NCBI RefSeq assembly: GCF_030156785.1
Contig: NZ_JASGLW010000001.1
Span: 1 to 64,000 of the forward strand
From: Methanohalophilus sp.
Lineage (GTDB): Archaea > Halobacteriota > Methanosarcinia > Methanosarcinales > Methanosarcinaceae
Direction of reading: 5' to 3'
Length of the DNA: 64,000 nucleotides
Position 1 is the stretch's first letter. Each line of letters opens with the position of its first letter. The notes under the pieces are model-generated. The model saw only the letters and a program-made list of their open reading frames with translations, was not told the DNA's origin and did not search any database. Shown here one piece after another: positions 8,755-36,788 of this stretch. Made by a program: the position numbers and the translations under genes.

Positions 8755-9120
8755 TCAATCGCTATCAACACCCGGCTCCTCCACGGAAAAAGTCAGGAAA
8801 ATCTCGCTGAATAGCATTTTTTCGATTATTCTTGCAACATAAGCTCTCTGCTGGTGCTTCTGGATATCCTCACCCAGCCTTAAATCCGAATCCACCTGTA
8901 CCCGCATAAGGGACAGCCTGAAATCATCAGGTTCTGGAAGATCGAGGGAGTAGAAATCAGCAAGGAGATAAGGCAGAATTGAAGGATTATCCACGGCTTC
9001 ACATAAGAGCAAATATTCTGCACCTATTTCAGCATTCAGGTCAAAATCCTGATCACCCAGAATAAGTTTCAAAGTAGAAACATTATATTGTTTTCCATTT
9101 TTTTCTATGAAAGAGTTCAT
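8755..9120 (-). CDS. Small acidic protein of unknown function at the end of the cobamide operon
   Basis: A 121-residue acidic protein I do not recognise. It has no transmembrane helix, signal peptide or cysteine cluster. The first half is Leu/Asp-rich (LGDQDFDLNAE, YLLADFYSLDLPEPDD); the second half looks helical. It is preceded by a GGAG ribosome-binding site and begins about 20 bp after the cobY stop, so it is probably the last gene of the cob operon. Position suggests a link with corrinoid metabolism, but nothing in the sequence proves it. Codon use and ATG plus SD support a real gene. Confidence 0.7.
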   Translation of the reverse strand: MNSFIEKNGKQYNVSTLKLILGDQDFDLNAEIGAEYLLLCEAVDNPSILPYLLADFYSLDLPEPDDFRLSLMRVQVDSDLRLGEDIQKHQQRAYVARIIEKMLFSEIFLTFSVEEPGVDSD

Positions 9121-9140: not shown

Positions 9141-9758
9141 TTAGCTCTTTTTCTTTTTACTGAGAATATCGGAACAATATTTGAGATCTTCGACAGTATT
9201 GATATTAATAGCAACCTGTGGATCATCCAGCAGGAAATTATGATATTCCTGTTCGACCCGAATGTCTTTTCCATCCAGAATGTTAATACCTGCAGGAACT
9301 ATCAATTGGCCATCCCAATTAAACACAGTATCAGGACGTAATCCCACTTTCTTGCAAAGTGAAAGAGGTATAAAAACAGACATAGACGCTTTTCCACATT
9401 CATAATATGCCCTGACAATCTGATCAATAAGAGAAGATGTTACCAGTGGGAGATCTGACATTATAATCATAACAGGACTTGTTATTCCAGCAGATTCCAC
9501 TGCATAAATCATATCCCCAACGTAGTTATCACCGCCGGTATCGATGGTCTTAATTCGTCCTTTATAATACTCATTTACAACTTTTTCAGTAGTTGGAGTA
9601 AAAGGAGAAACTGTCACATATATCTTCTCAATTTCTTCCGCACCCTCAAGACTATCAATAATGTAACTGATAAGGGGTTTTCCAAGCAGATCAACAACTG
9701 GCTTTTCACCCATTCCCAGACGTAGACCCTGGCCGCCGGCCATTATAATAGCATCCAT
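9141..9758 (-). CDS. cobY: Adenosylcobinamide-phosphate guanylyltransferase CobY
   Basis: CobY transfers GMP from GTP to adenosylcobinamide phosphate, giving adenosylcobinamide-GDP. It is the archaeal non-orthologous replacement of bacterial CobU. The 205-residue product has the nucleotidyltransferase start MDAIIMAGGQGLRLG with the downstream EKPVVDLLGKPLI segment and the SDLPLV metal-binding motif. The gene overlaps the 3' end of cobS by 16 bp and is followed by the small acidic ORF. A MobA-type guanylyltransferase is the main alternative by fold. The setting among cbiB, cobZ and cobS decides for CobY. Confidence 0.93.
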   Translation of the reverse strand: MDAIIMAGGQGLRLGMGEKPVVDLLGKPLISYIIDSLEGAEEIEKIYVTVSPFTPTTEKVVNEYYKGRIKTIDTGGDNYVGDMIYAVESAGITSPVMIIMSDLPLVTSSLIDQIVRAYYECGKASMSVFIPLSLCKKVGLRPDTVFNWDGQLIVPAGINILDGKDIRVEQEYHNFLLDDPQVAININTVEDLKYCSDILSKKKKS

Positions 9759-10564
9759 ACAATCCCCCCGTAGCTAGTTGAGATTAGATTGAGAGCAATA
9801 ATAATGGCAATCAATGAAACAATTCGTCCCACTTCATTAGCAGTGCCTATGCAATCACCATTAATTCCGGTGAAATGTTTATTGGAAACATAAAGTACCC
9901 AGAACGCGGAAACAATTGCAGCTACAAAAGCTATTAATCCGACAATACCCAATGCAATTCCAGATACAATTCCTCCAATCAGCACACTCCTGAGGAAAGT
10001 GCTGAAATTAGTGACATTGATTATCATGGAACCTAGGCCTTCATGAATGGGCTTCCCAAAAGCTGAAATTGTAACCATTGCTTGTTTGGCACCAATTTCC
10101 GCTACCAAAACCGACAAAGGCAGATACAGCCATCTGACATCACCTGATATTGTTGATTGAATTACACCCTGCAGTGAGAGAATAGCAGAGTAAAGAACCA
10201 ATAATGAGATCACACAGAAAGCGACGCCTCCAATACCAAGAGACATGTCCTTAAGTGCTTTGATTTTTTTCTCAAGGGATCCATGGGCTGTGAAACCATC
10301 TCCGAAATCGGATAATCCGTCAAGATGATTGAAGCCTGTGAGATAATAAACAAAAGCTACAATAAGGGCAACACTCAGGCTTGAAGGGAAAATATATTCT
10401 GCCGCAGCTGTAAAGATTCCCATGAGGGACCCCAATATAATCCCGGTAAAAACAAAAAGATAGCTCCTCTTTGAAAGCTCATCAAGACCTTCCATTGTTA
10501 TCCCAACCGGAATGGTTGAAAGGAAACCAAAACCGGTCCTTACTGCAAGCAGGAATCCACTCAT
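9743..10564 (-). CDS. cobS: Adenosylcobinamide-GDP ribazoletransferase (cobalamin synthase)
   Basis: CobS is the integral membrane enzyme that joins adenosylcobinamide-GDP to alpha-ribazole phosphate. The 273-residue polytopic protein shows the family signatures FLSTIPVG near the N-terminus and NHLDGLSDFGDGFTAHGS (about 79-96), which supplies the acidic metal-binding residues, plus several long hydrophobic helices. Its ATG overlaps the cobZ stop as ATGA, and cobY overlaps its own 3' end, so translation is coupled through this part of the operon. The enzyme acts at the cytoplasmic membrane together with CbiB. Confidence 0.94.
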   Translation of the reverse strand: MSGFLLAVRTGFGFLSTIPVGITMEGLDELSKRSYLFVFTGIILGSLMGIFTAAAEYIFPSSLSVALIVAFVYYLTGFNHLDGLSDFGDGFTAHGSLEKKIKALKDMSLGIGGVAFCVISLLVLYSAILSLQGVIQSTISGDVRWLYLPLSVLVAEIGAKQAMVTISAFGKPIHEGLGSMIINVTNFSTFLRSVLIGGIVSGIALGIVGLIAFVAAIVSAFWVLYVSNKHFTGINGDCIGTANEVGRIVSLIAIIIALNLISTSYGGIVWMLL

Positions 10565-11139
10565 CCGGCGATCACATCACTAACAGTTTTTTTCATTTCG
10601 TTCTTCTCTTCCACTTCTGCCATAGCTCTTGTGTACATGTTGGCAGAAACTCCTCCAATCAACCCAGCTACGATGTCATCCATAAAAGGACCAAGTTCTG
10701 CAAGGATGCCTGGTTTTTGTTTGTCAAAACGGACAAATTCAAACATTCCTTTATCCCCACTGATATATTTGGAGATGCTCATACCAAGTACTTCATCAGC
10801 AATTATGAATGTTAGATCACGTTCATAGGAATCAGGGCTTATGTTAGGAAGTTTCCCTGCACGACCATCTCTTTCCAATAATATTCCCGCATATATTAAC
10901 ATACAGAGATTGGGATCTGAAATAGCGATTTTTAGTTCCCTCATAAACATATTTTCTGCAATTTCGCGGGTTTCAAGGCCGGGGTGTGGTGTATAAAGGG
11001 ACAATGCCGCATCTAGCATAGCCTCAACTGTGACACCTTCCTCTTTAAGAATTTCTAGGATATCACGTGTATTGTCTGTTTTAGCAGTTTCCGACTGACC
11101 TTTTTTAAGATCTTTGGATTTAATCTCTGACAATTTCAT
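10561..11139 (-). CDS. cobZ: Alpha-ribazole-5'-phosphate phosphatase CobZ
   Basis: CobZ is the archaeal replacement of CobC and dephosphorylates the alpha-ribazole phosphate moiety in late cobamide synthesis. The product (192 residues from the ATG at 11139) has a charged N-terminal extension of about 40 residues. The PgpA-like phosphatase core follows, with DKGMFEFVRFDKQKPG and GPFMDDIVAGLIGG containing the conserved Asp pair. A GTG nine bases upstream is possible, but the ATG fits family starts better. A plain phosphatidylglycerophosphatase is excluded mainly by the gene order cbiB-cobZ-cobS-cobY. Confidence 0.88.
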   Translation of the reverse strand: MKLSEIKSKDLKKGQSETAKTDNTRDILEILKEEGVTVEAMLDAALSLYTPHPGLETREIAENMFMRELKIAISDPNLCMLIYAGILLERDGRAGKLPNISPDSYERDLTFIIADEVLGMSISKYISGDKGMFEFVRFDKQKPGILAELGPFMDDIVAGLIGGVSANMYTRAMAEVEEKNEMKKTVSDVIAG

Positions 11140-11150
11140 TGTAACCACTT

Positions 11151-12146
11151 TTATCCAATTCGATTAATAATATCTGGAACTGTATAGACAACCAATGCGA
11201 GCACAGCAACTGTAAGAAGGGATGTAGCTAATATCAACAAAGATGCTCGTTTTATGTCTTCACATTCAGGACGGGCATATTTTTCTCCCAACACATAAAT
11301 TCCGGGCTTTTCCATACGCACTTTAAGCGATCCCGCAAATGCTGCCATTGAATAACCAGAGTTTGGAGATGGCGGTATGCGGCAATCACTAAAAGCACAC
11401 AAATGTGCCTCTTTTGGGTCGTAGGCGGAACCCTTGAAGAGATTTAAAATGATAGATGCTCCAATGATAAAAAATACTGATAAGCGTGCAGTAGGCCAGT
11501 TAAGGACATCATCAAGCCTTGCTGAAAATTTACCCATATCAATATGATCCTCATCTTTGTAACCAACCATAGAATCAAGTGTATTCACTGCCTTATAGAC
11601 ATAGGCAGCAATCAGCCCCAGTGGGCCAAAAATCGCATAGTAGAATAGGGGGGTAAAAATTGAATCCACAAAGTTCTCAGAAAGGGTTTCAATAGCTGCA
11701 GAGGATACTTCGGATTCACTAAGTTCTGAAGTATCCCTGCTGACATACATGGAAAGTTTCTGACGTGCAGACTCCAGACCCTCTTCACAAAGGGCATTGT
11801 ATAGTTCCTCGCCTGCATAAAGGAGACGGTTGATTGCGAAAGTACATTTGAGGAACAGAGCCTCAATGAAAATTGCTCCGATTTCAGGCATCCATGGTGC
11901 ACTTGCAACCCATAAGACAGTTAGTGCGATAGCCGAAGCAAATCCCATACAGAATACCCCCATGAAAACACCATAAGCAAGCCTGTGGGATTTAGGAGCA
12001 TTCCTTTTGAAAAAATAAATAAGATTTCCAATCCAGACTACAGGATGAAGTCTGGGATTTGGCTCTCCAATTGCAAAATCAATTAGTATTGCAAGCAAGA
12101 ATACATTTAGCAAATGAAGGCCATTCAACAACTCAAAATCAATCAT
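11151..12146 (-). CDS. cbiB: Adenosylcobinamide-phosphate synthase CbiB
   Basis: CbiB attaches (R)-1-amino-2-propanol phosphate to adenosylcobyric acid in the membrane. The 331-residue polytopic protein has AILIDFAIGEPNPRLHPVVW near the N-terminus, the SRDTSELSESEVSSAAIETL region and the NFVDSIFTPLFYY motif (about 158-170). It ends with a helical segment after PPSPNSGYSMAAFAG. All are family hallmarks. Its ATG overlaps the stop of the cobD-like gene (ATGA). Its substrate is the product of CobD, which makes the defective state of the neighbouring cobD-like gene notable. Confidence 0.95.
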   Translation of the reverse strand: MIDFELLNGLHLLNVFLLAILIDFAIGEPNPRLHPVVWIGNLIYFFKRNAPKSHRLAYGVFMGVFCMGFASAIALTVLWVASAPWMPEIGAIFIEALFLKCTFAINRLLYAGEELYNALCEEGLESARQKLSMYVSRDTSELSESEVSSAAIETLSENFVDSIFTPLFYYAIFGPLGLIAAYVYKAVNTLDSMVGYKDEDHIDMGKFSARLDDVLNWPTARLSVFFIIGASIILNLFKGSAYDPKEAHLCAFSDCRIPPSPNSGYSMAAFAGSLKVRMEKPGIYVLGEKYARPECEDIKRASLLILATSLLTVAVLALVVYTVPDIINRIG

Positions 12147-13618
12147 AGAAGCGGTTCCACCACCTTTTTCCAGGTTTTTTTCAGTTTTTCTTCCATTGGA
12201 GAATCCACACGGAGTTCACAAACCAGTTTTTTTGCCACATCAGGAAGATGAACAATATTGCATCCTTCACAGCTCCATACCTTCCCTCCACTGGAACGTT
12301 CAACCCATTTGCCCCCTGTTCTTTCATTCCCGCATGGGTAAAAGGGACAGAAACAGAACGTGCAATCCTGCCCTTGGAAATGGCAGGGATAATAAGGGCA
12401 TGTTTTATTTGGACCGATGGCTGAAAATTCAGGAGACAATAACGAAGTTTCAAGTTTTTCCATGGCTTTGTCTCGTGCAGAATCGACCACAGCAATACCA
12501 ATTTCCCTAACAAGATTATCAGTAGCTTCCTTTGAACGAACAGAAACTCGGATAAAATCCTGTCCCATTGAATAAAGATTGGAACAATCCTTGACTTTAA
12601 TTCCCGCATCAAGAAGACGATGTGTGAGTTCAGTTGAACCTATCGAAGAAGCGCTGATGTCCACAAGTACATAATGAGAATCTCCGGGTAACACCCTGAA
12701 TTTGCGAATCTTGCTGAGACGGTCTACAAGGTATTCCTGGTTTTCAGAAATATATTTCCGGGTTTTTGCAAGGTAGTTTTTGGAAAGATCATCTCGCCTC
12801 ATAAGCGAAATCGCAACTTTTTCCGATACAACGCCCAGATTCCAGGAAAGTCTTGCAGAATTAAGTTTTACCGCCATTTCCGGGGATGTAACACCAAATC
12901 CAACTCTGATTCCCGGGATTGCGAACATTGTATCAAGGGAACGAAGCACAAAAAGATTATTGTTAGATCTTGTGATTGATATAAGACTTGCTGATTCATC
13001 GGCAAAATCAATACAACTCTCATTTACGAAAAGAAGGGTGTTCGTCTGAATGCATATTTCAGAGAGTTTTTTAAGTACATTTTCTTCCACCAGTTTTCCA
13101 GAAACATCCGAAGGGTTGGAAAGAAACATGACTTTTGCATCCTGGATATCGGAAGGATCAATATCTTGTATTTCATCTTCCATTATATGCATGGTTTCCG
13201 CACCATGAATGTTACAATACTTTTCGAATAGCTTCGTTGCAGGCTGGACAATTACAACTTTGTCTCCCTCATTAACGGTGCACTCAAAAACCAGTTTCAC
13301 GAGTTCACATGATCCGTTTCCGGGAACAACCTGCTCCGGAAGAATTGTATTTTCAAAAAAGGAAGCGACCGAATCCCTAAATTCAGAATAGCGATTGTCA
13401 GGATATTGAGTAAGCCGTTGAGAAGCATTTTTTGTAGCTTTTGAAAAATCCAATCCAGAATCAGGTTGATCAAAGGGGTTCCCCAGAGGATTTATTAACA
13501 GACTGAAATCAAGCTCAGGCTCTACACGAATCGACTTTGCAGAGTTTAAGTTTAGATCTTCAAATGAATTATATCCAAGATCCATGATCCTTTTTTTCAA
13601 TATCCTGTCCTCTGGCAA
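12143..13618 (-). CDS. CobD-like aminotransferase-fold protein lacking PLP residues, with Cys-rich tail
   Basis: This 491-residue protein aligns along its length with CobD (threonine-phosphate decarboxylase) and shares the C-terminal Cys-rich extension of methanosarcinal CobD (CHFQGQDCTFCFCPFYPC). However, the Schiff-base lysine motif SLTK reads SLDT (Thr at about 230). The NPxNPTG motif reads NPSDVSG (about 168-174), and the pyridine-binding Asp is Asn (VNES, about 199). The N-terminal HGG motif is absent. PLP-dependent decarboxylation is therefore unlikely. An intact paralogue lies at 35262-36788. Methanosarcina CobD is known to have threonine kinase activity as well, so this copy might keep the kinase or a regulatory role (inference). 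It is the first gene of the cob operon, overlapping cbiB. Confidence 0.88.
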   Translation of the reverse strand: MPEDRILKKRIMDLGYNSFEDLNLNSAKSIRVEPELDFSLLINPLGNPFDQPDSGLDFSKATKNASQRLTQYPDNRYSEFRDSVASFFENTILPEQVVPGNGSCELVKLVFECTVNEGDKVVIVQPATKLFEKYCNIHGAETMHIMEDEIQDIDPSDIQDAKVMFLSNPSDVSGKLVEENVLKKLSEICIQTNTLLFVNESCIDFADESASLISITRSNNNLFVLRSLDTMFAIPGIRVGFGVTSPEMAVKLNSARLSWNLGVVSEKVAISLMRRDDLSKNYLAKTRKYISENQEYLVDRLSKIRKFRVLPGDSHYVLVDISASSIGSTELTHRLLDAGIKVKDCSNLYSMGQDFIRVSVRSKEATDNLVREIGIAVVDSARDKAMEKLETSLLSPEFSAIGPNKTCPYYPCHFQGQDCTFCFCPFYPCGNERTGGKWVERSSGGKVWSCEGCNIVHLPDVAKKLVCELRVDSPMEEKLKKTWKKVVEPLL

Positions 13619-13668
13619 GTTAATCGGAGTAGTGTATGAACAGCAGCTATATTAAATTAATCAAATTG

Positions 13669-15130: not shown

Positions 15131-17093
15131 TTAGACCTTTCTTCTGAATATAGCATAGACTATAACTAGAACACCAATCATGAGAAGTGAGCTGAATCCT
15201 GGCGAACCATTCGTGGATTCTGTCTCTTCTTCTCCAGATAATGATACATCATCTTCGGAAACTTCCTCATCTGAAACAACTGGCTTGGTCTCAGTGTCCT
15301 GAGCAGCTTCTACCTCCACAGCAGAGATTGCAAATGGTGAAAAACCAGTTGTGTGCGATTCGAAGTAAAAGAATTCATCATCCTCGTCAATAAGAGAGGT
15401 GTCTAGCTCTTTCCATCCATCATCGTAATGGAACATAGCAATTGATGCAGGAATAACATTATTTTCAGTCATCCATTCCTTGCTTACCCTGAAGCCAACA
15501 ACAGGATCTTCCATGTTGTCTTCATCAAAGGTAGCAGTACCCAGCCAGATGTTAAGATATTTGTAGGCCCGGCCAGGTGCATCTTCATCCACAAGTGAAG
15601 AAGTACCTTTCAGGATCTCAACAAGCGCCTTAATCTGTCCGGAATTGGTTGTTGCCCTGAATTGGATATAGGACACCGGGTTGTCATCATTAACAAATTC
15701 ATACTTTACATCTAAACCTGCTGTTACTATACGAGTCTGAGATTCTTTTAAAACGATGTTTTCATATGCTTCGGCGGACGAGCTCAAACCAGATGGGCCA
15801 CCAGATGATCCACCATTATTACTTTCTACTGGAACTGTCGATGGTATGTTGTCTATTGTTATTAATACATTAGTCTCATTGTTCCAGTTTGATGGCGATT
15901 CGGTATCTGAGGCGTTTATTCTAACACGATAATTGCCATCGGCTACACCAAGTTGTGTTGTATTAATGAAGCCTGTGTAGTTTACATTTGTTAGGCTCAT
16001 TTGTATGAGATTACTTGCATAGCCAGTATCGTTTTCAAGCCTGCAGTAAACATCTCCAACTCCACTATCATCTGTTATGTTTGCCTCTACAGTTATGTTT
16101 CCTTCATAGACTCCGATTGTTGGTCTAACAATTATTACTGTTGGTGCCTCCTCAACATTGTATGTCGACCAATGATTTACTGTAAAGGTGATAGAATAAT
16201 TTCCGCCAGTCATTGGTAACACTGCAGGAGTCCCTGCGAGGTATTCCAAATCAACATTTCTAGTAGCCCAGTTAAAAACTTCTAGTGGCTGATCGGACCC
16301 ATCAGGAATTGTGTAAATAACAATATTGTCGGTTGTTAGATTGTATATTGTGATATTCGATGTTCTGTTGAACTCTCTCATGGCAGTTGTGGCATTATTG
16401 ATGGACATACTCCTTGATGCCATTATCAGGTTATAGCCTAGGTTTTGAAGACTCTGGATGAAGTTCTGATCAAGCAAGTTCACAGATTCAAGAATCTCAA
16501 GATTTCCATCAATCAATCCTCCCGTGCTGTTGTGCTGGAATGTAAGTCCTGTAACATTGCTGAAATCCTCTATATCTCTCCAAGACGTTGTTTCAGGGTT
16601 GTCCAGACCGGGAATGTCTTCTTTTGGATCGAAGTTTATTATGGCAAAGCTGGCGTTTATCTGAGTTGTAGGGACAATTGTGCCGGTAGAATTAGTTATG
16701 TTCAAATAAACCGGAATTGTAATCGGAAAAACTCTCATTCACTGGGATATTAGCTATTGGGTATGTGAGTGTGAACATATAGTAATCCCCGTCCACGATC
16801 CCGGAGTTATTGAACCTCATAACTGGATTATCTGATGAAATTACCTGGCTAAAATTAGCACTTACGTTGTAATCGCTGACTGGATTTAGATTGGGAGTTA
16901 TATTAATATATACTTCTAAAGTTACCGTATCAGAATCGTTGTAGAAGTAATAGTAGTTTGACGGTTCTTCCGGAAGTGTGTCATTGTAGATGTAAACCAT
17001 GCTATTAATATTGACCTCCCCTGCTGCTGTAGATACCAAAGCTATCGAGATCAAAGCCAAAGCAAATATTCCGATTTTCACATAATCACCCAT
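15131..17093 (-). pseudogene. PGF-CTERM surface protein split by a single-base frameshift
   Basis: Two overlapping minus-strand frames form one protein. The upstream frame (17093 to 16692) has a Sec signal peptide and a beta-rich, N-glycosylation-rich region ending at IANIPVNES. The downstream frame (16738 to 15131) continues as FPITIPVYLNITN and holds the rest. Removing one T from the run of five near 16726-16730 joins them. The downstream part has NEW3/Ig-like segments, a PGF-pre-PGF domain (about the last 220 residues) and a C-terminal SPGFSSLLMIG-type PGF-CTERM sorting signal with one helix and a basic tail. Such proteins are processed by archaeosortase A and anchored at the cell surface. 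Real mutation, phase variation and sequencing error are all possible. Confidence 0.82.
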
Positions 17094-34585: not shown

Positions 34586-35269
34586 ATGCCAATGATTATT
34601 CCTGAAGATGAGCGTACAGATGAACCAATGGATACAGAAAGAGTGATCTATCATCCGGATATGATTAAAGCAAACGAATGGGTACTTTCCGAATATGAAG
34701 CACCTATCAGGAAAATAGCTGTTTTTGTCCCATGCTCTAAAAGAAAACCATATCATACAAGCCCATCTCACAAAATGTATGATCGAATAATATTTGGCAT
34801 CCTTAAGCCTGAAGATGTTCACGTGGTGGTTTTTGGAACATGTGGAATTACTCCACGGGAAATCGATACGGAGTACCCTTTTACTGCTTACAAATTTATA
34901 TTGGGGAAGTGCAATGTTGCCAGCATAAAAAGGGATTTCATAAAAATGGAAAGCCAACGGCTTTCACGATATCTGGAAAAAACAAGAGATAACTACGAAC
35001 ACAGAGTGGCATATTGTATAGGTGACTTTCGAACAGCAATGGAAAAAGCTGTTGAAATGGTTGATATTGACGTAACAATTGTACCAAAGCCGGAAACTCT
35101 TGAGAAAAATATCAAACCCAACAAACGTTTTATTTATGGAAGTTTGAGTCAGTTAGACTACTTGCAGGATTTTTCCGATGCCATAACCAATGCATTGGAT
35201 TTACCAAAGAGAAAAGTTGGAATTAATCCAGAACTTTCGGAAAACGATAACGATTGGTATCTTATTTGA
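34586..35269 (+). CDS. DUF5591 protein, ArcS core-like (archaeosine pathway)
   Basis: A 227-residue protein with the motif PCSKRKPYHTSPSH (about 49-62). It fits the PC-x3-KPY-x2-S-x2-H signature of archaeosine synthase ArcS, which forms the lysine adduct of preQ0 in tRNA. Full ArcS proteins carry extra TGT-like and PUA domains that are missing here. It could therefore be a split ArcS subunit or a paralogue. The rest (VVVFGTCGITPREIDTEYPF) also matches the DUF5591 domain. Its 3' end overlaps the convergent cobD gene by 8 bp. Confidence 0.82.
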   Translation: MPMIIPEDERTDEPMDTERVIYHPDMIKANEWVLSEYEAPIRKIAVFVPCSKRKPYHTSPSHKMYDRIIFGILKPEDVHVVVFGTCGITPREIDTEYPFTAYKFILGKCNVASIKRDFIKMESQRLSRYLEKTRDNYEHRVAYCIGDFRTAMEKAVEMVDIDVTIVPKPETLEKNIKPNKRFIYGSLSQLDYLQDFSDAITNALDLPKRKVGINPELSENDNDWYLI

Positions 35270-36788
35270 TGTCCAAAACAGGTGCTATTACCTCATCCCA
35301 TGCTTTCTTCAGGCTTTCTTTCAAGCCACCATCTTCCATTAGAATCTCAAGTATTTTTTGAGCGGTTTCTGGCTCGTGTATTATAGTGCAGTCTTCACAG
35401 CTCCAGACTTCGGTGCCGGTTGTGCTTTCAATCCATTTTCCTCCGGTTTTTACCTCCTTGCATGGGTAAAAGGGACAGAAGCAGAATGTGCAATCCTGCC
35501 CATGAAGGTGGCAGGGATAATAATTACAGGTGTTTCTCACTGCTTTTTTTCCGGATGATGCAATCGCTATGTTCTCACGAATTTTTCCTGCGCCATATTC
35601 TTTTCCTGATTCTGTAAGCACTTCACCTATGGCATAAAGCAGCCTATCGGTTTCTTCAGGAGGACGTACTGCAATTCGTATATAATTTCCTCCCATGGTT
35701 GGGAAAGAACTGCAATCACGGACCAAAATACCATGAGAAGCTAGTCGAGTGCTCAATTCTGTTGAATCAATCAGAAGATTGGAAATGTCCACAAGTATAT
35801 AATTCGCTTCACTGGGGAGAGGAATAAATCCGTAAATATCCGACAGACGGTCTGCAAGATATGTGCGTGCCATATCCACAAATGCCCTTGAACGCATGAG
35901 ATAAGGACTCTTAATACCTCCTTCCATCCTCAGCAGAGTACAACTCATTTCTTCCGCAAATGCTCCCATGTTCCAGGATAATCTTGCTGCATTGAGAAGA
36001 TCTGCCATTTCCTTCGAAGCAACCCCAAAACCCATGCGAATTCCGGGAATTGCAAAGCATTTGGTAAGGGATCGCATTACAAAAAGGTAATTTGAATTTG
36101 GAACTTCACCAACGACTGTTTGTGAAATATCAGAAAGCTCAATGAACGCTTCGTCAACGTATAGAAGCGTTTCATTTGCCTCGCATCTGGAAGCAAATTC
36201 AAGTATGCTTTCGGAAGGAATCAGTTTACCGGTGGGATTATTGGGATTACATACAAAAACAATCTTAGCTTTCGCAAGCATTTCATCGGGTATGTTGAGT
36301 ATATCATCAACAGGATAAGATAGTACTTTCGCTCCTGTAATACTGCATTGCTGTCCGTATTCTGCAAATGTGGGCGTGGGAATAATTACCGAATCATTGG
36401 GACCAAGAATACATTCTGCAACTAATCTGATGATTTCCGTGGAACCATTCCCTGGAATAATACAGTCTCTTGTTACTCCATTACCTACAAATTCTGCTGC
36501 AGCTTCCCTGAACTCAATATAACGATTATCAGGATACTGCCCAATTCTCTCAAATGATCTTGCAATAATAGAGTCAAGGTCCATACCATATTCTGGATGA
36601 TCAAAAGGAGTGCCAAGTGGATTAAGACTTGCACTCATATCCAAGATTTCATCTTCAGGAATTGAGTATAGTTGGGATGCATGTCGTATAAGCCCTCCAT
36701 GTGAAGGAGGTGTAAGAGCAAGTATATTTTCTTTAAGTGGGAGCATGAGAAGATCCTCATCCATGTCATTGTTCCTTATTTTAAACAA
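35262..36788 (-). CDS. cobD: L-threonine-O-3-phosphate decarboxylase CobD with Cys-rich tail
   Basis: CobD makes (R)-1-aminopropan-2-ol phosphate for the corrinoid nucleotide loop. This 508-residue copy keeps all PLP elements: SHGG (about 29-32), NPNNPTG (181-187), VDEAF (Asp212) and Schiff-base Lys243 in SLTKCFAIPG. The roughly 110-residue C-terminal extension contains CHLHGQDCTFCFCPFYPC and VWSCEDC, a probable metal or Fe-S site. In Methanosarcina mazei this enzyme type is reported to be bifunctional, also phosphorylating threonine. It is not in the cob operon but divergent from tRNA-Pyl, and paralogous to the PLP-less gene at 12143-13618. Confidence 0.92.
   Translation of the reverse strand: MFKIRNNDMDEDLLMLPLKENILALTPPSHGGLIRHASQLYSIPEDEILDMSASLNPLGTPFDHPEYGMDLDSIIARSFERIGQYPDNRYIEFREAAAEFVGNGVTRDCIIPGNGSTEIIRLVAECILGPNDSVIIPTPTFAEYGQQCSITGAKVLSYPVDDILNIPDEMLAKAKIVFVCNPNNPTGKLIPSESILEFASRCEANETLLYVDEAFIELSDISQTVVGEVPNSNYLFVMRSLTKCFAIPGIRMGFGVASKEMADLLNAARLSWNMGAFAEEMSCTLLRMEGGIKSPYLMRSRAFVDMARTYLADRLSDIYGFIPLPSEANYILVDISNLLIDSTELSTRLASHGILVRDCSSFPTMGGNYIRIAVRPPEETDRLLYAIGEVLTESGKEYGAGKIRENIAIASSGKKAVRNTCNYYPCHLHGQDCTFCFCPFYPCKEVKTGGKWIESTTGTEVWSCEDCTIIHEPETAQKILEILMEDGGLKESLKKAWDEVIAPVLDIK

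Follow-up and report, generated by a model that had tools for sequence, protein, structure and literature searches.

A lysine-less CobD paralogue of Methanohalophilus that may be retained for its cysteine-rich C-terminal domain

CobD of the methanogen Methanosarcina mazei (MM2060) is reportedly a bifunctional kinase/decarboxylase (2018) with metallocentres (2019), as two papers announce in their titles, and both activities are said to persist weakly in vivo without the C-terminal domain, so that the kinase would reside in the N-terminal domain. Paralogues without the catalytic lysine are known from serine palmitoyltransferase, where the subunit LCB1 lacks the lysine that binds pyridoxal 5'-phosphate (PLP) and the partner LCB2 keeps it (excerpt of PMC3794620). 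Two CobD genes and an absent kinase have been remarked on in Haloferax (excerpt of PMC8305020). Neither lysine-less CobD paralogues nor a function of the Cys-rich domain PF04071 came up in the literature covered, which comprised titles and the beginnings of abstracts, was incomplete and mostly excluded subscription papers, and thus does not prove absence from print. Here, we describe two cobD genes, 21.6 kb apart, in the window, i.e., the whole 64,000-nucleotide stretch of a Methanohalophilus sp. contig (NZ_JASGLW010000001.1) that was analysed. One lies directly before cbiB and lacks the PLP-binding lysine, and the other, at 35 kb, is intact (Table 1). We give a probability of about 0.5 to the reading, drawn from sequence comparison, that the lysine-less gene encodes a pseudo-decarboxylase that is retained for its Cys-rich C-terminal domain (C-domain).

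The frame given in the first-pass annotation of this DNA (12143-13618, 491 codons) is present, and its strand, left unstated there, is the minus strand (open reading frame 13618..12143, TTG start), the plus strand across the same interval being riddled with stops. The window copy is 42% identical to the intact copy (open reading frame 36788..35262), and the alignment bears out the four losses that had been described: SHGGL has become SFEDL, NPNNPTG has become NPSDVSG, YVDEAF has become FVNESC and RSLTK has become RSLDT, with Asn199 for the pyridine Asp (which the other lysine-less groups keep) and Thr230 for the Schiff-base lysine. The statement that every PLP-binding motif had been lost holds for SLTK, NPxNPTG, the pyridine Asp and HGG and goes too far for the rest, as the window copy retains GNGSxE (100-105), R238 of GIR and R357, which we take to be the phosphate loop, the phosphate Arg and the carboxylate Arg, as well as YPDNRY (72-77). 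The possibility that another lysine aligns with the Schiff-base position was checked, and no such lysine is found in the window copy, nor does a substitute stand beside Thr230 in the window copy or in its nearest relative, G033. In six sister species a lysine occurs one residue earlier (SLKDT, SLKNT, SLKYT); the phosphate loop and phosphate Arg are also gone there, and Phe replaces the Tyr of YPD. Judged by its residues, the window protein would be incapable of decarboxylation. It also fails the CobD equivalog model TIGR01140 (201.5 bits against a cut-off of 290.55), which the intact copy barely passes (292.5 bits).

A structure model of the window protein, built from 8 sequences, has a mean predicted local distance difference test score (pLDDT) of 74.0, with ten-residue blocks of 65-95 over residues 41-380 and low values in the C-domain. 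Foldseek matched it to histidinol-phosphate aminotransferases and to Salmonella CobD (3ftb, 1lkc/1lc8) at a probability of 1.00, with template modelling scores by target length of 0.88 to 3ftb and 0.81 to 1lkc, and the protein is therefore predicted to fold as CobD. This fold match and a PF00155 score of 123.6 bits (gathering threshold 19.7) place it in the fold-type-I aminotransferase superfamily, and it has the MM2060-type architecture of an aminotransferase fold followed by a C-terminal PF04071.

Conservation of the two domains was compared in an alignment of 137 CobD proteins from 84 of 111 related genomes, from which frames shorter than 440 amino acids (including a broken cbiB-proximal copy in G024) were left out and in which identical proteins were counted once. 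Ninety-seven rows carry the lysine, and 113 columns are at least 97% invariant among them. Counting as kept those columns that reach at least 90% in each of four lysine-less groups (the window copy with G033, the six sisters, and the genera g10 and g11), all 24 of 24 such columns from position 400 onward (the C-terminal part) are kept against 21 of 89 in the N-terminal part. The first-pass annotation had called the Cys-rich tail fully conserved and had hinted at its importance, and both remarks agree with these counts. Mean identity to single-copy CobDs follows the same division, with N-domain values of 0.38-0.45 for lysine-less copies versus 0.55-0.58 for the lysine-bearing copies of two-copy genera, and C-domain values of 0.58-0.65 versus 0.57-0.65. 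The ratio of nonsynonymous to synonymous substitution rates (dN/dS; pairwise Yang-Nielsen estimates, the C-domain being too short for most pairs) in the N-domain is 0.141 between the window copy and G033 and 0.034 for the intact copies, and ranges among the six sister species from 0.16 to 0.27 for lysine-less and from 0.05 to 0.18 for intact copies. Selection does act on the lysine-less copy, though less strongly than on the intact one; the earlier claim that the gene is under selection is borne out by N-domain values of 0.14-0.27.

The lysine-less state is shared well beyond the window. A search of 111 genomes of the family gave a CobD match in 109, with none in G004 and G108; loci were taken among the matches listed, and 11 of the 30 genomes of genus g13 entered the alignment. 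Mapping of the lysine over the aligned set, as had been proposed for this gene, places a lysine-less copy together with a lysine-bearing copy in 8/8 genomes of the window's genus (g1), 27/27 of g10 and 5/5 of g11, and the same pair is seen in a sixth g11 genome (G070), its intact member being truncated at a contig end. A lysine-less paralogue is accompanied by an intact one in 40/40 family genomes that have a lysine-less copy in the aligned set; in the distant family f29, G241 has a lysine-less copy and its next best match is HisC. The lysine-bearing rows consist of 40 partners and 57 proteins from eleven other genera. A one-off mutation can be rejected, and chance or sequencing error is excluded because the lysine is missing in 8/8 genomes of the genus. 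In lysine-less copies, the lysine column holds T, D, Y, N, H, G or R, and the residue differs among lineages as well as inside them. The genome of the window itself (G000; size 1.55 Mb, completeness 94.55%) has four CobD matches, of which two cover most of the length and lie in the window, and two are weaker (28% and 23% identity) and lie elsewhere; PF04071 is matched twice. The pair is 19 to 25 kb apart in six sister genomes and on separate contigs in G037. In family f23, the matches end before the C-domain.

The lysine was lost more than once. In the main tree (89 of the 137 rows plus 10 outgroup rows, motif columns omitted; other trees used smaller sets), the lysine-less copies of g1 form one clade, starred for support, with the lysine-bearing proximal copies of g7 and g3, and those of g10 and g11 form another. 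Forcing all 23 lysine-less tree rows into a single clade costs 49 log-likelihood units, and a single loss is rejected by the approximately unbiased (AU) test (p-AU 0.000124). Gene order agrees, as the lysine was lost from the cbiB-proximal copy in g1 and from the distal copy in g10 and g11. The copies are in tandem in g3, g10 and g11 and near-tandem in g7; both carry the lysine in g3, where they lie beside pylS, and in g7, where a cobY-like gene lies between them, apart from the broken copy of G024. A third, lysine-less CobD-zf gene in G063 and G069 and one in f29 bring the changes on the widest tree to four, three of which are forced by starred branches, the f29 row being very long and its placement unsure. 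There were at least two independent losses, and four on the widest tree.

Some loci of this set stand out in their own right. The cbiB-proximal cobD of G024 is in two overlapping frames (L057:5670-7177, -), by assembly error or a recent break, and in g7 and g12 (L052-L062, L100-L101) an additional cobY-like gene adjoins cobD, lying between both copies in g7. The third, lysine-less CobD-zf genes of G069 and G063 are highly diverged (L285:1504-2955, -; L293:350-8886, -; L286:1387-2895, +). That of G069 belongs to a gene run on one strand with CbiZ and a FecCD/periplasmic-binding/ATP-binding cassette set, and the scanned neighbours of that in G063 are a type II secretion system-type pair, RNase HII, an amidotransferase and a CDP-alcohol transferase.

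The C-domains fall into two types, with either R418 and M484 or N418 and a residue other than M484 (numbering of the intact copy) in 137/137 rows. Only the R type occurs in single-copy genera. Type follows position in g1, g3, g7, g10 and g11, with N type in the proximal and R type in the distal copy, whichever of the two has lost its lysine; g9 has both types, both with lysine in G029. The rule of one of each holds in two-gene genomes with few exceptions, and a tree of the C-domain parts proximal from distal copies with one change.

PF04071 was found in 285 of 392 genomes drawn from the archaeal phylum, and its fusion partners among the proteins examined are CobD, CbiZ, CbiP, CbiB and glycerophosphodiester phosphodiesterase (GDPD). 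Four of five scanned CbiZ-type proteins with PF04071 have a Pfam CbiZ match; the fifth (L133:1471-2496, -) has a full PF04071 match and no Pfam CbiZ match, and is perhaps a second example of an enzyme domain that decayed next to a retained Cys-rich domain. PF04071 is fused to CbiP in L037 (cobyric acid synthase, 546.5 bits) and to CbiB in one open frame in L216 (4854-6209, +), stands alone in family f9, where cbiB is directly downstream in L200 (3862-5285, -) and L203 (4929-6196, +), and ends proteins with a GDPD-like start in five loci of family f5 (L205-L209; Pfam GDPD in the three scanned). Proteins of ~170-240 amino acids in L224-L228 have PF04071 and then a stretch without a Pfam family (two of five scanned). 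In f29, the lysine-less CobD-zf of G241 directly follows a ribonucleotide reductase gene (L242:7656-9128, +), and the Cys-rich part alone follows the same gene in its sister G378 (L244:3341-3829, -), the first Cys lying 1,085 bases past the end of the reductase gene in G241 and 188 bases past it in G378. The latter observation rests on one contig because the assembly is fragmented, with 7% contamination. In both genomes no cbiB was found, and the next best relative is HisC, above cut-off.

The pattern could come about as follows. Duplication of a fused CobD (aminotransferase fold plus PF04071) would have given two copies whose Cys-rich domains, as the sequence pattern has it, are of two stable types, and both types would have been kept by selection. 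Decarboxylation of L-threonine phosphate would thereby have become redundant in one copy, which would account for the observed losses of the PLP lysine from either copy, cbiB-proximal in this genus and distal in g10 and g11. The dead aminotransferase fold, on which selection is seen to act, would serve as a folded scaffold. The intact copy at 35 kb would, by its complete motifs, supply aminopropanol phosphate, and the earlier proposal that decarboxylation is left to this second copy fits well with those motifs. The C-domain would be the working part, possibly taking part in arm attachment and salvage as a regulator or partner that depends on metal or redox state. Repeated independent loss in relatives suggests that it is the tail rather than the enzyme that is needed. 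Generalised, PF04071 could be the selected unit of archaeal cobamide metabolism. It would come in two functional types, both of which many methylotrophic methanogens would require at once, and the decarboxylase fused to it would be a dispensable carrier, inactivated several times in either copy and absent in one distant species; the domain itself would sense corrinoids or metals and thereby gate the attachment of the arm and salvage. This wider proposition is tentative, and we think it distinctly less probable than not. Repeated loss of the catalytic residue with unbroken conservation of PF04071 separates two functions that are fused in nature, and the lysine-less proteins are therefore ready tools for the function of PF04071. 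By their residues, proteins annotated as 'CobD' in the Methanosarcinaceae would include some that are unable to decarboxylate.

Several observations weigh against retention for the C-domain. The C-domain of M. mazei CobD alone is said to be inactive, which speaks against a self-sufficient domain, and a separate AlphaFold model of the C-domain is of low confidence (pLDDT 62.9). The N-domain is under purifying selection, and the window copy keeps 45 of the 73 N-domain columns that are invariant in 33 rows from single-copy genera and outgroups, whereas fewer would do for a mere carrier. One of each type fails in G024, whose broken proximal copy did not enter the alignment, and in G030, G051, G063 and G069, which have extra copies: in G030 two R-type copies, nearly identical and lying at contig edges, together with an N-type end, an additional N-type copy with lysine in G051, and the third, lysine-less copy, of N type, in G063 and G069. 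Support for the distal clade in the C-domain tree is 83 and unstarred, and full-length trees show no single shared duplication of proximal and distal copies. In the wider distribution, GDPD is a fusion partner outside cobamide synthesis, stand-alone PF04071 adjoins cbiB in only 2/7 f9 loci, the other five having no cbiB in the stretch read, and the control genome Haloferax volcanii has CbiB and no PF04071 match.

Among the alternatives, the first-pass annotation had suggested that this copy kept only the kinase, i.e., that L-threonine kinase activity was retained and decarboxylation left to the copy at 35 kb. The dual activity announced in the titles on M. mazei CobD makes such subfunctionalisation conceivable, and F62, N88, N181, Y296 and R301 (intact-copy numbering), which differ or are gapped in Salmonella CobD, are kept in all lysine-less groups, as is the carboxylate Arg (R371 of the intact copy); no Pfam kinase domain was found in eight scanned proteins, and the N-domain dN/dS of 0.14 also fits. 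Nevertheless, there is no sign of a split between kinase and decarboxylase, because none of the 73 N-domain columns was lost in an intact partner yet kept in its lysine-less mate, a pattern confined to the C-domain positions 418, 484 and 503. What has eroded is the N-domain, where the kinase is said to lie: only 27 of the 73 columns are kept across the 8 g1 lysine-less rows (50 in g10 and 40 in g11), compared with 64 to 71 in intact partners. Moreover, f29, in which no cbiB was found, still has either a lysine-less copy or just the Cys part. We therefore find no support for the kinase-only suggestion and regard it as unlikely. A heteromer modelled on serine palmitoyltransferase, in which the lysine-less subunit would pair with the intact copy and share an active site across the dimer interface, has its precedent in LCB1/LCB2, and would agree with the match of the window-protein model to CobD folds, with the tandem or near-tandem genes of g3, g10, g11 and g7, and with the retention in the window copy, g10 and g11 of YPDNRY, which presumably enters the neighbour's site. 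The wide spacing of the window genes, the Phe for Tyr in YPD of the six sisters, the sufficiency of one gene in most single-copy genera and the f29 genome G241, with a lysine-less copy, no cbiB found and HisC as the next best relative, make this improbable.

SLKDT and its variants in the six sisters might suggest that the old pocket has gained a different activity or that another lysine binds PLP, but the window copy and G033 have no such lysine, those six are without phosphate loop and phosphate Arg, and the replacements at the lysine column differ between and within lineages, so that we hold it for quite improbable. A decaying gene or sequencing artefact would explain why the N-domain dN/dS is raised roughly fourfold over that of the intact copy (0.141 vs 0.034). 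Open frames of at least 440 amino acids in 40/40 aligned genomes of g1, g10 and g11, dN/dS values of 0.14-0.27, upstream boxes exact in 8/8 genomes of the genus and the retention of all invariant C-domain columns led us to reject decay, which we consider very improbable indeed. As to what the C-domain does, a docking tag for CbiB would be attractive since CobD, CbiZ and CbiP all make CbiB substrates and PF04071 is fused to or adjoins cbiB in some relatives. That idea is weakened by the 3 of 18 searched PF04071 genomes in which cbiB was not found (G241, G378 and G337, the last 75% complete), by the H. volcanii CbiB without PF04071, by the presence of cbiB beside only 2/7 f9 stand-alone loci in the stretch read and by the family in which PF04071 is fused to GDPD.

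The lysine-less cobD heads an operon-like run cobD-cbiB-cobZ-cobS-cobY(-like) (Table 1), in which the cbiB product consumes the CobD product. Its TTG start is supported because both upstream boxes are common to all 8 lysine-less genes of the genus, and TTG or GTG comes right after the second box in five upstream regions (window, G033, G031, G035, G034). The 19-base box occurs in exact form before 0/129 other aligned rows, some of whose upstream stretches end at contig edges. Both boxes (13619-13665, -) are exact in 8/8 genomes although the window protein is only ~45% identical to six of those proteins; they may be a promoter or operator and are worth attention. A cobalamin riboswitch upstream of the gene was rejected, as Rfam at gathering scores returned one tRNA only for the whole window. 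Two further window frames, 8755-9120 (-) and 15131-16738 (-), match no Pfam family, and the former has a counterpart after cobY in g3, g7 and some g11 loci.

Table 1. Coordinates in the window of the two cobD genes, of parts of the lysine-less copy and of its neighbours
Feature	Position	Strand	Basis and remarks
Lysine-less CobD paralogue, cbiB-proximal, C-domain type N418, 491 aa	12143..13618	-	TTG start; 4-nt overlap with cbiB
Predicted aminotransferase class I/II fold without Schiff-base Lys, residues 62-373	12500..13435	-	Pfam PF00155, 123.6 bits; pLDDT and Foldseek
Thr230 codon, position of the PLP-binding Lys	12929..12931	-	Alignments
Cys-rich small domain PF04071, residues 401-468, invariant Cys/His all kept	12215..12418	-	Pfam match 85.6 bits, cut-off 27
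Upstream box TTTGATTAATTTAATATAG	13647..13665	-	Exact, 8/8 genomes of genus; putatively promoter-like (TATA)
Second upstream box CGATTAAC, abuts start codon	13619..13626	-	Exact, 8/8 genomes of genus
cbiB, adenosylcobinamide-phosphate synthase	11151..12146	-	TIGR00380 252.9 bits, above cut-off
cobZ, alpha-ribazole phosphatase	10561..11148	-	TIGR03161 164.5 bits, above cut-off
cobS	9743..10564	-	TIGR00317 142.8 bits, above cut-off
cobY-like gene	9141..9758	-	Below NCBIfam cut-offs: TIGR00454 139 vs 174.7 bits, NF045495 129.8 vs 250 bits
Distal, intact CobD paralogue with Lys243, C-domain type R418/M484	35262..36788	-	TIGR01140 292.5 bits, cut-off 290.55

Compared with described systems, the window copy has the two-domain layout and the place before cbiB in common with M. 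mazei MM2060, as is the case in single-copy genera, but differs from it in lacking the Schiff-base lysine, the pyridine Asp and HGG and in its score, which does not reach the CobD equivalog cut-off; the direct counterpart of MM2060 would seem to be the intact copy (P0002). The fold is shared with Salmonella enterica CobD (1LC5/1LC7/1LC8/1LKC; Foldseek E 2e-24 to 1LKC), a 364-residue chain without the Cys-rich domain in which, unlike in the window copy, the aligned SLTK is present. LCB1 of serine palmitoyltransferase is, like the window copy, a lysine-less paralogue of a lysine-bearing partner, but belongs to an unrelated pathway, and the window copy has an extra Cys-rich domain. Finally, the PF04071 proteins of archaea, whether fused to CbiZ, CbiP, CbiB or GDPD or stand-alone, have the same domain, which is matched at full strength in the window copy, whereas here it is carried by what appears to be an inactivated decarboxylase.

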